This document shows, one piece after another, positions 1,505-8,000 of a DNA stretch of 64,000 nucleotides. The stretch covers positions 62,001-126,000 of the forward strand of contig NZ_FNQF01000002.1 in NCBI RefSeq assembly GCF_900107595.1, read 5' to 3'. The first letter of the stretch is position 1; every line of letters begins with the position of its first letter. A program made the position numbers and the translations under genes. The stretch comes from Psychroflexus halocasei (GTDB lineage: Bacteria > Bacteroidota > Bacteroidia > Flavobacteriales > Flavobacteriaceae). A model generated the notes under the pieces. That model did not search any database. It had not been told where the DNA came from and saw nothing but the letters and a program-made list of their open reading frames with translations.

Positions 1505-1531
1505 TGTATCCTTTTTGAGTTTGTCTCGTCT
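1505..1531 (+). promoter_or_regulatory. Candidate ECF-sigma promoter before the Cys-rich peptide/sigma factor pair
   Basis: A TGTATCC box at 1505-1511 and a CGTCT box at 1527-1531 are separated by 15 bases, 29 bases before the ATG of the Cys-rich peptide. CGTC/CGTCT is a common -10 core for ECF sigma factors, so an autoregulated promoter of the downstream SigZ-like sigma factor is plausible. It differs from the usual TAnnTTTG elements elsewhere in the window. Inference from sequence only. Confidence 0.42.
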
Positions 1532-1560
1532 CCTTAATGAACCTATAAAAATCAAATCTT

Positions 1561-1677
1561 ATGAATAATTGCGAATGTACGAACTGCGAATGCACAAAGT
1601 GTAATTGTGTAAATTGTAAAACAAGCGATTGCCCTTGCGATGTTTGTGAATGTTCAAAATGTAGCTGCTGTAATTAA
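1561..1677 (+). CDS. 38-residue cysteine-rich peptide (metallothionein-like)
   Basis: A short open reading frame of 38 codons, ATG to TAA, containing 14 cysteines (37 percent) arranged almost entirely as CxC and CxxC: it opens MNNCECTNCECTKCNC and ends CECSKCSCCN. Such spacing is characteristic of metallothionein-type thiolate clusters that bind Zn, Cd or Cu(I), although the order does not match a bacterial SmtA family I know. No aromatic residues and no signal peptide, so it is probably cytoplasmic. It ends 11 bases before the SigZ-like sigma factor, which itself has a C-terminal CC...CxxC tail, so the two are probably co-transcribed. Too short for most gene finders. Function is inferred from composition only. 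Confidence 0.68.
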   Translation: MNNCECTNCECTKCNCVNCKTSDCPCDVCECSKCSCCN

Positions 1678-1688
1678 TTAAATCATCT

Positions 1689-2219
1689 ATGAGTTTTCAA
1701 ACCTCTGACATTTGGAATGACCACAGCAGTGAAATGTACTTTTTCTGTTTAAAAAAAGTACAAAATGAAGACATTGCCAAGGAGGTTTTACAAAATACTT
1801 TTTTTAAAATTCATAAAAACATAAATCAATTGAAAAGCCCGTCTCAATCGAGATCATGGGCTTTTCAAATTTTAAGAAATGAGATCATCAATTATCATAG
1901 AGAAGGCTTACCTCAAGATGATCATGAAGATTTATCCGCTCTATCAAGTGATGAATTTAAAGATCAGTTTTGTTGTTTTGAAAGATTTATCAACGAATTA
2001 CCTCCACACTATAAAACAGCAATTACCTTAGTTTACATTAAAGGTAAAAAACAAAGTGAAGCCGCTGAACTCATCGGAATTAGTCTCGCAAATATGAAAG
2101 CACGCATCAGGCGAGCAAAAGACATCTTAAAAAAACGTTTTAATGAATGTTGCCAATTTTCATTTAATGATAAAGGCGAACTCATCGGCGAATCTAATTG
2201 TGCGCATTGCGAAGATTAA
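1689..2219 (+). CDS. SigZ-like ECF RNA polymerase sigma factor with C-terminal Cys motif
   Basis: A sigma-70 family factor of the ECF type, 176 residues: region 2 at about 8-70 (DIAKEVLQNTFFKIHKNI, then SWAFQILRNEIINYHR) and region 4 at about 98-150 with the helix-turn-helix GKKQSEAAELIGISLANMKA. It would direct RNA polymerase to a small regulon. After region 4 there is an extension with C154-C155 and C171-C174 (CCQFSFNDKGELIGESNCAHC), a CC-x15-CxxC arrangement found in SigZ-like factors and possibly sensing metal or redox. No anti-sigma gene follows, so control may be through this tail or the Cys-rich peptide 11 bases upstream. Family assignment is firm; the signal is inference. Confidence 0.88.
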   Translation: MSFQTSDIWNDHSSEMYFFCLKKVQNEDIAKEVLQNTFFKIHKNINQLKSPSQSRSWAFQILRNEIINYHREGLPQDDHEDLSALSSDEFKDQFCCFERFINELPPHYKTAITLVYIKGKKQSEAAELIGISLANMKARIRRAKDILKKRFNECCQFSFNDKGELIGESNCAHCED

Positions 2220-3176: not shown

Positions 3177-3692
3177 ATGAAAATTCTTGGTATTTCAGGT
3201 TCTGCAAGTCAAAAAAGCAGTAATTATTACATGCTGAAAGCTATACAGAAAAGCATTGCCGATAAACATCAAATGCAGGTGTATGATGATATACATGCTT
3301 TTGAGTTGTTTACACCTGAAAAATTAAAAAAAGGTGTTCCTGGAGATATTCAGAATTTTAAGGAGAGTATTTTAGAAGCTGATGCAATTATCATTTCAAC
3401 GCCAGAATACACACATAATATACCTGCCGTTCTTAAAAACATGATTGAATGGTGTACACATTCTGGAGAGTTTTCAGAAAAAAGAATTTTGCCAATCACT
3501 TTTACGCCAAAAGAACCACGAGGAGAGTTTGCCATGCAATCATTATTGAATTCTTTACAAACCATGAAAGCCAAAATTGTAATGGAATTTCCGCTTTATA
3601 AAACCGATGTCATTATTGAAAACCAAGAGATCAAATTCCCTAATGAGATTCAAGATATGATAGATGAAGCTCTCTTTCTTCTCATGAATTAA
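3177..3692 (+). CDS. NAD(P)H-dependent FMN reductase family protein
   Basis: A 171-residue flavodoxin-fold protein of the NADPH-dependent FMN reductase family (SsuE/YieF/ArsH-like). The N-terminal MKILGISGSASQKSSN is the FMN-phosphate-binding loop, and IISTPEYTHNIPAVLKNMIEW is the characteristic PEY motif segment contacting the isoalloxazine ring. Such enzymes reduce free flavins, quinones or metals; the acceptor cannot be predicted. It starts 12 bases after guanine deaminase and probably ends the mgsA-guaD unit, as a small hairpin lies downstream before sbcD. Confidence 0.85.
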   Translation: MKILGISGSASQKSSNYYMLKAIQKSIADKHQMQVYDDIHAFELFTPEKLKKGVPGDIQNFKESILEADAIIISTPEYTHNIPAVLKNMIEWCTHSGEFSEKRILPITFTPKEPRGEFAMQSLLNSLQTMKAKIVMEFPLYKTDVIIENQEIKFPNEIQDMIDEALFLLMN

Positions 3693-3720
3693 AATCTTCA
3701 AGTTTAAACACTTTTAAACC

Positions 3721-3745
3721 TATCATTTTTAATCAGAAAATGATA
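3721..3745 (+). terminator. Weak hairpin between FMN reductase and sbcD
   Basis: TATCATTTT at 3721-3729 pairs with AAAATGATA at 3737-3745. The stem is all A-T except one G-C pair, and the T-tail is poor, so it may be a weak terminator or chance. A TACATTCG element (one mismatch to TAnnTTTG) follows at 3760-3767. Confidence 0.3.
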
Positions 3746-3784
3746 AATTGCAATTGACATACATTCGATTTCACTCCCGTAATT

Positions 3785-4993
3785 ATGAAAATTTTACACA
3801 CAGCCGATTGGCATATTGGCAAACGCTTACACAAACATTATTTATACGCTGATTTTGACCTTTACATCGGTTGGCTTAGTGATTTAGTTGTTGAAAAAAA
3901 AATTGATGCTATTCTTATTTCAGGTGATGTTTTTGATTTAGCTAATCCTTCAGCCGAAGCTAGAAAGCAATATTATCAATCTTTGGTTGCTTTAAATAAG
4001 CTTAACTGTCATGTCATTATCACTGGTGGAAATCACGATTCGCCAAGTATGCTTGATGCGCCAAAAGATTTATTATCAGCTTTGAAAGTCAATGTCATTG
4101 GTGGTTTACCTGAAAACATGGAGGATTGCATCATTCCTTTACCAAATTCAAAACAACCTGAAGTTGTAATCGCTGCCCTTCCCTATTTACGCGATGCTGA
4201 TGTTCGTAAATCAGAAGAAGGACAAACTTATGAAGATAGATTGCAAGCAATTCAGAAAGGAATACAAATGCGTTTTGATGAAGCTGCTGAAATTTGTGAA
4301 ACCAAATATCCTGACTTGCCCGCAATAGCGATGGGACATTTATATGCAGCAGGCGTCAGCACTTCAGAAAGTGAGAGAGATATACAAATTGGTAATCAGG
4401 CTGCTTTTCACGCTGAGCAATTCAATTCACATTTTAATTATGTTGCTTTAGGACATATTCACCAACCTCAGCAAGTTAATTCTAACGTTCCAACATATTA
4501 CAGCGGTTCACCTCTTATGCTTTCTTTCAGTGAAAGACGTGATGAAAAGAGGGTTTTATTACTCGATACAACAAATAATTTAGCTGTCGAAAATATTCAG
4601 ATTCCGAAATTCAGACAATTATTAAAAATAAGTGGCACACTTGAAGAAATAGAAAATAAGTTATCTCATCTAGATGCAATCGGACATTTAAAAAGCTTAG
4701 TAGAAATTGAAATGATTGAAAAGGACTTTAGTCAAAATAAATTGACATTATTAGATCAATTAGTGAGTGATTTTAATCATAAAGATTTCGAAATTGTTAA
4801 ACACAGAGCCAGTTTTAAAAATGAGCAGGTAAAAACCAGTGAAATTTATAAAATCAATCAAAATTTAGAAGATCTCAAACCCAAAGAAGTTTTTGACAAT
4901 TTGATCGAACAAGAATCTTATTCAGAAAAAGAAAAAACTGAACTGAGACAAACATTTATTGAACTTGAAGAACTTCTAAATACTGAATTATAA
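3785..4993 (+). CDS. sbcD: Exonuclease SbcD (Mre11-type nuclease subunit)
   Basis: Nuclease subunit of the SbcCD complex, which opens DNA hairpins and processes protein-blocked ends. The 402 residues carry all calcineurin-like metallophosphatase motifs in order: HTADWHIGK near the N-terminus (D8, H10), GDVFD, GGNHDSP, then MGHLYA and LGHIHQPQ, which complete the two-metal site. The C-terminal third (about 275-400) is the acidic, helical SbcC-binding and capping region. The gene ends 12 bases before sbcC, the usual order, so the two subunits are probably made from one transcript. Confidence 0.96.
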   Translation: MKILHTADWHIGKRLHKHYLYADFDLYIGWLSDLVVEKKIDAILISGDVFDLANPSAEARKQYYQSLVALNKLNCHVIITGGNHDSPSMLDAPKDLLSALKVNVIGGLPENMEDCIIPLPNSKQPEVVIAALPYLRDADVRKSEEGQTYEDRLQAIQKGIQMRFDEAAEICETKYPDLPAIAMGHLYAAGVSTSESERDIQIGNQAAFHAEQFNSHFNYVALGHIHQPQQVNSNVPTYYSGSPLMLSFSERRDEKRVLLLDTTNNLAVENIQIPKFRQLLKISGTLEEIENKLSHLDAIGHLKSLVEIEMIEKDFSQNKLTLLDQLVSDFNHKDFEIVKHRASFKNEQVKTSEIYKINQNLEDLKPKEVFDNLIEQESYSEKEKTELRQTFIELEELLNTEL

Positions 4994-5005
4994 GCTTTTA
5001 TCCTC

Positions 5006-8000
5006 ATGAAAATTTTAAAAATAAAGTTTAAAAACATCAATTCTTTAAAAGGTGACCACGAAATTGATTTTACAAAAACACCTTTTACAGAGAATAATTT
5101 ATTTGCCATCACAGGACCAACAGGAAGCGGGAAAACAACATTGTTGGACGTAATTTCATTAGCACTTTTCAATCAAGTTCCGCGATTAGGAAAAATGAGC
5201 AAATCTGAAATTTCTAATAAAGGTGCCATCTTAACGCGTAATCAAAAAGAGGCCTCTGCTGAAGTCACTTACAGTTGTCAATCTGGTATTTATCGCTCAC
5301 AATGGAACATTTCAACAGCGAGAACTGGGAATTTAAGAGACTACGAAATGTCAATTACAGATATTTCTAATGATAAAAGTTTAGATTATAAAAAAGGAGA
5401 TGTTCCTGCAAAAAATGAAGAATTGATTGGCTTAAATTACGATCAATTTATTAAGTCCGTTGTACTTGCTCAGGGTGAATTTGCGAAATTTTTAAAAGTA
5501 AAAAAAGAGGAGCGTGGCGAATTGCTTGAAAAAATTACTGGAACAGGTATTTATAGAAGATTAGGTCAAACGGCATTTTATAAATATCGTGACTTGGATA
5601 ATGCGGTTAAAAAACAAAAAGATAAAATTTCCACCCATAAGGAAGTGCTTATTTCTGAAAAAGAGTTTGAAGAAAAAGAAAAGTTAGCTCAAGAAACACA
5701 CAAGGAAAAAGAAAAGATTAGCAAGCTTTTGAAAGCTTTAGAACTTCAAATTAATGATAAGCGGACATATCTTCAACATCAAGATGATCTTGAAAAGTTT
5801 AAAAATCAGATCAAAGAAAACGAAGATAGAATTTCAGTTTTTGAGAAAGAAAAAGGAGTTCAGCTCAAAAAACATAATGAATTACAAGCCTATATTGAGA
5901 ATATTCAAAAATGGAAAGATTTAAACAAACAGCTTCAACAACTTGAATCTCAAAAGGAAGAAAATCGTCAAAAGCTTGAGAATGTCAATCAAAATCTTGA
6001 GCAAAATAAAGACGAATTTGCTTCTCTTTTTGGTTTAAATACAAATGATAAAAACTTTGAGGACAAGCTCGTTAAATACAAAGAAACAGTAAGGAAATTT
6101 AAAAAAGAACGCGAAGAAATACTTACAGCTTATAAAACTTTAGCAAACTCGATTGATGAAAATTTGGCAGATTTTAAATTAAAATTAAATCAAAAACATC
6201 CGAGTTCAAGCTTACAAGAAGTTCAAGATTTAACTAATGAAATTCTGAATAAAAAAGAAGAATTAGAAAAACAATATTCTTTTTCTGAAACGACTGATAT
6301 TGAATATGAACAAAAAGAAATTAAAGAAAAATTAAAGCAAATTTGGAATGCTGAAAAATGTCATTCAGAACTATCTCGAAAAAACGAAACAGTTAAAAAT
6401 TTAGAGAAAGATCTGAAAGAGAGTCTGAAAGAAATTGAGAATTATCCTGCTCAAATTAAAGATTTAAAAAGCAAAATTCAGCTTCAAGATTCGCAACTTG
6501 AGGCTAAGGAAAGTCATTTAAAAAACGCTGAACTTCAGAAGAAACTTGAAGATTATAGAATAGATTTAAAACCTAATGAGCCTTGTCCGCTTTGTGGTAG
6601 TTTAGATCATCCGCTTGCTGAAAATCATCCTAAAGCCGATGATCAGTTAGAGAAAGAAATTCAGGAATTAACTGAAATTTTAAATAAAAACAAAACACAG
6701 TTGACACAGTTTGAAACAAAGTTGGAGACTGTCAATAAACAAAACTCTAAAACTGAAAATCAGTTAGAATCTTTGACTTCAGAATTAGATTCTTTAAAAA
6801 TTTCATATCAAAAACAATTTGAAAACTTAGAGGTTGATACAGATTCTCTTTCTGAATCAAAGGAAAGATTGGAAAACAAAAGTGAAGCTCTAAATGATTT
6901 TTATAAATATCAACAAGCTTTATCGCAACTTCAAAAAAGCAAAAATTCTATTGTTAATTTAGAAGACTTACTCAATAAGGGACGTTCCAAAAAAGAAGAA
7001 ATCGAACAACTGTTTGAAGGTGATAACTTTGAAAATAAAATCAATCAATCAGAAAGAAATTACCTGAGTTTATCAAAAGAAAAAGAACAGCTTGACAGTT
7101 TAAAATCAAAGATTGAAGAAGAAGATGAAAACATTGATAACCAATATCAAAAGCAAAACGACTATTTAAAAAATTGCCTAGAACCTCTTAATTATGAAAA
7201 TGTTTCTGAAGCAATCAAGCATATTTTACCTCATCAAATTTTTCAGAAATATCAAGATGAAAAACAGACTTATGAAAACCAAAAAATCAGTCTGAACACA
7301 AGTCAAAAAGATTTAAGTGAACAAATCGATAAACTCAAAGAAAAAGTAGGCTCTGAAACTATTGATGATTTAAAAGAAAATTATAAAAACAAACAAAATC
7401 GTTTACAAGATACTGAAAATCAACTCAATGAATTCAACCGATTAATTAAAAATCAAAAAGAAACACTTCAAACAATATCTGATATAAAGGAAAAAATTGG
7501 AGAGCAACTTAAAATAAATCATCGTTGGAAAATGATGAATGATTTAATTGGTGATTCAAAAGGAAAAAAATTTAATGACTATGCGCAAAACTTAACGCTT
7601 TCGCAACTTCTTGTTTTAGCAAATGAACGCTTGAGATTATTAACCGATCGCTATCAAATTGATAAAGCAGCAAAAGGTGAAGATGACAGTTTAATCGCTA
7701 TTGATGCTCATATGGGTGGACAACGAAGATCAGTCAAAACGCTTTCAGGAGGTGAAACTTTCATTATGAGTTTGGCTTTAGCATTAGCTTTATCAGATTT
7801 TGCTTCACGCAAAGTAGAAATTAACAGCCTTTTTATCGATGAAGGTTTCGGAACTTTAGATCCAGAAACTCTAGATCAAACATTAGACACTTTAGAAGTT
7901 TTACAAGCAAAATCTTCTAAAACAATTGGTATTATTAGTCATGTCAGCAGTTTAAAAGAACGTATTTCTACACAAATACAATTAACCCAAAATGGACAAG

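Follow-up and report, generated by a model that had tools for sequence, protein, structure and literature searches.

A window of 64,000 nucleotides from the genome of Psychroflexus halocasei carries a gene for a very small cysteine-rich peptide directly before the gene of an ECF sigma factor. The question that this locus raises is whether the two genes form a functional unit and, if they do, what the unit senses and controls. The initial annotation had described a 38-residue peptide with 14 cysteines lying 11 bases 5' of a SigZ-like sigma factor. This is borne out by reading of the ORF at 1561-1677: its product is MNNCECTNCECTKCNCVNCKTSDCPCDVCECSKCSCCN (38 aa, 14 Cys), and 11 nt separate its stop codon from the sigma ATG at 1689. 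The features of the locus are as follows.

1505-1510, forward strand: -35-like element TGTATC (extended TGTATCCTTTTT), from 47 aligned peptide-gene upstream regions, motif scoring and genome scans.
1528-1533, forward strand: -10-like element GTCTCC, from the same upstream alignment and motif scoring; its GTCTM core is near-invariant in relatives.
1561-1677, forward strand: Cys-rich metallothionein-like peptide, type A, from profile search, genome search and purifying selection.
1689-2219, forward strand: SigZ-like ECF sigma factor of 176 aa, from Sigma70_r2 and Sigma70_r4_2 domains, alignment A1 and an AlphaFold model.
1971-1976, forward strand: codons of linker Cys95-Cys96; in alignment A1 C96 is invariant, and type A sigma factors have CC.
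2148-2153, forward strand: codons of tail Cys154-Cys155, both invariant in alignment A1.
2199-2210, forward strand: tail C171-A-H-C174 (CxxC); in alignment A1 C171 is invariant and C174 is conserved in >90%.

The window peptide has the type A cysteine spacing C.C..C.C..C.C..C....C.C..C.C..C.CC and contains no F, W, Y or H. Metallothioneins are recognized by small size, a cysteine content of about one third, CxC and CxxC motifs and the absence of aromatics and histidine, and all of these are found here. By its Cys content and its CxC/CxxC motifs the peptide looks like a metallothionein. Searches against Pfam, NCBIfam and PDB sequences returned no match, and in these collections the peptide has no homology to any known metallothionein family.

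The best family match of the sigma factor is to the SigZ models (TIGR02959, PRK09637), with a TIGR02959 score of 128 bits that falls below the curated cut-off of 168.65. The SigZ tail signature CC...G...C, compared with SigZ of Vibrio, Priestia, Rhodococcus and Desulfosporosinus, is present. Translation of 1689-2219 confirms that the protein ends in CC-x15-CxxC, with CC at 154-155 followed by C171xxC174. Another CC, at 95-96 in the sigma2-sigma4 linker, was absent from the initial annotation. An AlphaFold model built on 5 sequences (pLDDT 73, tail 50-66) suggests that the tail folds as a helix-hairpin-CxxC, and is too weak to place a metal site. As was noted earlier for the window, no anti-sigma gene is present; the neighbourhoods of the peptide-sigma loci that were read in relatives contain no anti-sigma gene either, and no conserved third gene.

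The pairing is widespread. In a sample of 199 genomes of the window's family, used for both sigma protein and peptide profile searches, the sigma protein has a close match in 42 (the window genome included), and 28 of the 30 sigma loci read, again counting the window locus, are immediately preceded, on the same strand, by a Cys-rich peptide. The unit comes in two forms. Type A combines a 14-Cys peptide with a CC sigma linker, while type B combines an 11-Cys peptide of the pattern MKNxECTCNCxxCxxGNCxxCTCENCTCxNCNC with a single linker Cys. When searched by profile alone, the type A peptide is found in 9/199 genomes, in each case (9/9) adjoining a type A sigma gene, and the type B peptide is found in 34/199 genomes, in about 25 of which it adjoins a sigma gene. 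A scan of genome and viral contigs with a TGY-spaced pattern, which was too loose and listed mostly low-complexity matches, recovered at least 4 genuine type A peptides, all with a sigma gene next to them; among the matches listed, these come from Aequorivita lipolytica, A. aurantiaca, A. soesokkakensis and Salegentibacter sediminis. Pontibacter sp. BT731 carries a type A-like peptide-sigma unit. Other SigZ genes in Bacteroidota, across which the initial annotation had proposed a search, also have Cys-rich peptides before or after them. There are exceptions. In L091 and L096, which no longer have a sigma gene, Cys residues of the peptide have been lost; L093, L094 and L097, all from incomplete genomes of which two are under 2 Mb, have an intact peptide with neither a sigma gene nor the promoter motif; and genome G606 has kept the sigma factor without the peptide. 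Judged by this co-occurrence, the peptide and sigma genes of flavobacteria and related bacteria make up a genuine, conserved unit.

Selection on the peptide is purifying and acts on it as a protein, since its cysteines are conserved while their codons vary and dN/dS is low. In type A, 252/252 Cys codons are conserved (14 positions in 18 sequences), and in type B 308/308 (11 positions in 28 sequences); both TGT and TGC are used, in type A at every position. The median dN/dS is 0.18 for type A (12 pairs) and 0.28 for type B (68 pairs), with values near 1 on tiny dS in a few very close type B pairs.

This bears on the possibility that the short ORF is a Cys attenuator, in which the translation of a leader peptide would respond to Cys-tRNA and thereby govern read-through to the sigma gene. 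Like the known Cys-codon leader attenuators, the locus has a short Cys-rich ORF before a gene, and most relatives have a strong stem-loop in the peptide-sigma spacer, often followed by a T-run (L010, L012, L016, L185 and others), which resembles a terminator. Unlike in such leaders, the peptide is conserved as a protein, with its Cys spacing kept along its whole length and a low dN/dS. Short gaps without a hairpin occur in the window, L013, L046, L047 and L471, and no terminator-like site was found in the window between 1180 and 2320. A Cys-rich peptide of another form follows the sigma gene in L035, L050, L053, L054 and L056, and the intact peptides of L093, L094 and L097 stand without any sigma gene at all. 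Hairpin-less short gaps, downstream peptides and stand-alone peptides together argue against an attenuator, which is very improbable. Across 15 type A spacers pairing holds in 99.3% of cases at the 10 pairs of the hairpin, and 6 of these pairs have changed on both sides. This suggests that the hairpin is a leaky terminator that keeps the peptide above the sigma factor.

The initial annotation had also placed a candidate ECF promoter before the pair, and conservation across relatives upholds it. The window promoter, 1505-1533 (TGTATCCTTTTTGAGTTTGTCTCGTCTCC), matches a motif that practically every relative with a retained sigma gene has 5' of the peptide. Its -10-like element lies 17 nt past the -35-like element and 27 nt 5' of the peptide ATG; in relatives the distance from promoter to ATG is mostly 23-32 nt. 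The near-invariant joint motif is TGYATCYTTTT-N12-GTCTM, and the two forms of the unit have TGTATCYTTTT-N12-GTCTMC (type A) and TGCATCTTTTT-N11-YGTCTA (type B). With zero mismatches, 397 family genomes contain 56 sites of the joint motif and 9 of the reversed pattern. Peptide-sigma operons account for 44 of the 56, and 21 of these operons were reached by the motif alone. At two or fewer mismatches the site counts are near those of the reversed-pattern control, and sites were used for the regulon at 0-1 mismatch or when high-scoring in promoter position. Most of the other motif matches examined are inside coding sequence. The promoter is found almost only at the unit and accompanies the sigma gene. 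It is therefore very probable that the sigma factor drives its own operon, and the self-regulation proposed earlier gains support from this co-occurrence. Since the promoter is otherwise almost absent from the genomes and no third gene is conserved, the main output of the promoter is very probably the peptide-sigma operon itself, with the peptide as its main product. That the pair is a conserved, autoregulated unit is, on these comparisons, nearly certain.

A small number of sites lie elsewhere. In G690 (L469, L479) the peptide-sigma operon is directly preceded by a DUF3703 gene that has its own promoter copy, 45 nt before its ATG, and this gene is likely a further member of the predicted regulon. 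Promoter-position sites also occur in G053, before a lipoprotein gene and about 150 nt away from its start codon ATG, and in G031, before a gene that was named M61-like by eye. L478, from G606, contains a type A sigma gene without a peptide and a convergent TonB-dependent receptor gene that carries the operon promoter (3200-3724 and 3777-5948). L453 (G030) has a perfect operon promoter before a broken membrane-protein-like frame. This frame matches nothing in Pfam, and its genome has no such sigma gene; the site was not counted as a relic of a CDF gene.

Two sites are of interest for the nature of the signal. In G083 a promoter-position site with 1 mismatch to the type B consensus precedes a ZitB/DmeF-like CDF gene, and in G131 a site with 2 mismatches, whose match extends past the -10 region, precedes a CDF gene beside czcB/czcA-like genes. 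Among the genomes examined, only these 2 gave CDF sites, and most CDF orthologues in other genomes lack the motif, so CDF genes were rejected as a general target. The CDF sites, few as they are, are the only direct pointer to divalent metals and lend indirect support to them. The same Cys anatomy could also serve a thiol-redox circuit, in which disulfides in the linker and tail control the sigma factor and the peptide acts as a thiol buffer or reductant under disulfide or electrophile stress. A redox signal fits the sigma factor as well as a metal does, and a recent review table of Bacillus subtilis sigma factors lists no signal for SigZ (PMC10141391). The dense CxC/CxxC motifs without aromatics or His are, however, typical of metal clusters, and the promoter sites outside the operon point to cation efflux rather than to thioredoxin-type genes, which leaves the redox circuit improbable. 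Metal, by comparison of these features, is a fairly probable signal.

The cysteines of the sigma factor show what is particular to the unit. Among 87 Bacteroidota sigma factors collected by homology, with a peptide called when it has at least 6 Cys and lies within 600 nt upstream or 400 nt downstream of the sigma gene, a peptide accompanies 45/62 sigma factors with linker Cys and 0/25 without (Fisher p 6e-11, not corrected for relatedness; the counts ignore shared ancestry, and an independent-pairs test had too few contrasts). All 45 peptide-bearing sigma factors in this sample have linker Cys and at least 3 tail Cys, and 11 of the 87 have both linker and tail Cys and yet no peptide. A clade (L037, L067, L502, L503, L505 and L506) has kept the linker Cys, lost the tail Cys and has no peptide. 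The canonical SigZ of Vibrio, Desulfosporosinus and Rhodococcus carry Cys in both linker and tail, with no Cys-rich peptide nearby. The Cys tail was therefore set aside as a novelty and as the mark of this pair that it had been taken for: it is found in these SigZ and in peptide-less Bacteroidota SigZ alike. As far as these alignments reach, the Cys architecture is ancestral and shared by SigZ in general, and the new, added element is the peptide. By the same comparisons it is the peptide that sets the unit apart, and its only carriers among the sigma genes are those with linker and tail Cys. Since there are peptide-less sigma factors with this architecture, the canonical SigZ among them, a SigZ does not need the peptide to work.

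Other sigma genes in Bacteroidota were seen along the way. L500 and L510 encode CorE-like sigma factors with a CKC or CRC linker and a Cys-rich tail, and no adjoining peptide was found. On a mobilizable Hymenobacter plasmid (L517), about 2 kb separate a SigZ-like sigma gene without a Cys-rich peptide from arsC/arsB arsenic resistance genes.

A partner so strictly paired with sigma factors that have linker and tail Cys could be a direct regulator, an anti- or co-sigma that bridges to the Cys tail via a shared metal and is not mainly a buffer. The decay of the peptide where the sigma gene is lost (L091, L096) fits this proposal, as does the matching of the 14-Cys peptide with a CC linker and of the 11-Cys peptide with a single linker Cys. 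The three intact sigma-less peptides are at odds with it. So are the very different Cys-rich peptides next to other SigZ, which include the downstream peptides and other upstream forms (L485, L489, L493, L494) and point to bulk thiol chemistry and not to a specific interface. A direct regulator is thus unlikely.

The best explanation, to which we give a probability of roughly two in three, is a self-contained, autoregulated, metallothionein-like circuit that buffers metal. The thiolates of linker C95/C96 and of tail C154, C155, C171 and C174 would together bind a thiophilic metal, with Zn(II) or Cd(II) as the likeliest candidates. Binding would flip the sigma factor between inactive and active forms with no anti-sigma, as in CorE/CorE2; both the choice of metal and the direction in which it acts are taken over from these proteins. 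Excess metal would turn the operon on, and the peptide, made in excess, would chelate the metal and shut the sigma factor off, closing the loop. In most relatives the intergenic hairpin would keep the peptide well above the sigma factor; the window genes are nearly contiguous instead. This circuit draws on the co-occurrence of the unit, the autoregulation motif, selection on the peptide, the CDF sites, the CorE precedent and the covariation of the hairpin, and also on the decay of the peptide after sigma loss and its absence from the clade without tail Cys. The scarcity of CDF sites, peptide-less sigma factors such as that of G606 and the sigma-less peptides in a few small genomes weigh against it.

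An operon with a near-unique promoter makes the signal of SigZ testable in one locus, and the same locus allows one to ask whether a sigma factor could, with no anti-sigma, serve as a metal switch over its own chelator. Small genes that gene finders could miss can be searched for by the promoter motif or by the presence of a short Cys-rich ORF next to SigZ. A broader idea, which we put at a little short of even odds, is that SigZ-type sigma factors are widespread direct thiolate-metal sensors and that Bacteroidota repeatedly acquired a co-transcribed metallothionein-like peptide. If true, the result would be a minimal metal homeostat of two genes, with a sigma factor whose control hardly goes beyond its own chelator. 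Searches of open-access literature turned up no sigma-metallothionein operon, though the main ECF classification paper falls outside them and may mention one.

Several known systems share parts of this design. CorE of Myxococcus xanthus is an ECF sigma factor without an anti-sigma that has a CxC linker and a 38-residue tail with 6 Cys, and it regulates multicopper oxidase and ATPase genes (PMC3107203; PMC8999054). The metals of CorE2 are reported to be cadmium and zinc (PMC10141476). CorE and CorE2 of this species (ECF238, former ECF44) resemble the window sigma factor in lacking an anti-sigma and in having Cys in both the tail and the sigma2-sigma4 linker, and the control of metal-handling genes would be a further likeness. 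They differ from it in sequence, which here is SigZ-like, and in Cys pattern: the window sigma factor has the tail CC-x15-CxxC, the linker of the unit is CC or a single C, and the four invariant Cys in CorE pattern plus CxC linker that define CorE-like (ECF238) proteins are not found in it. The unit has a Cys-rich peptide partner, whereas none is mentioned for CorE in PMC3107203 and PMC8999054. The SigZ family (TIGR02959, PRK09637) shares the linker Cys and the CC...C tail, and differs in that the canonical members examined outside Bacteroidota lack a neighbouring Cys-rich peptide. Bacterial metallothioneins are described as repressor-controlled (PMC8790569; PMC10141476). SmtA/SmtB, NmtA-AzuR and MymT-RicR each pair a small Cys-rich cytosolic peptide with a dedicated metal-type regulator, as the unit appears to do, but in them the regulator is a repressor, whereas the partner here is a putatively autoregulated sigma factor. 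Compared at this level, the logic of the unit resembles CorE plus a metallothionein, yet the unit belongs to neither family.
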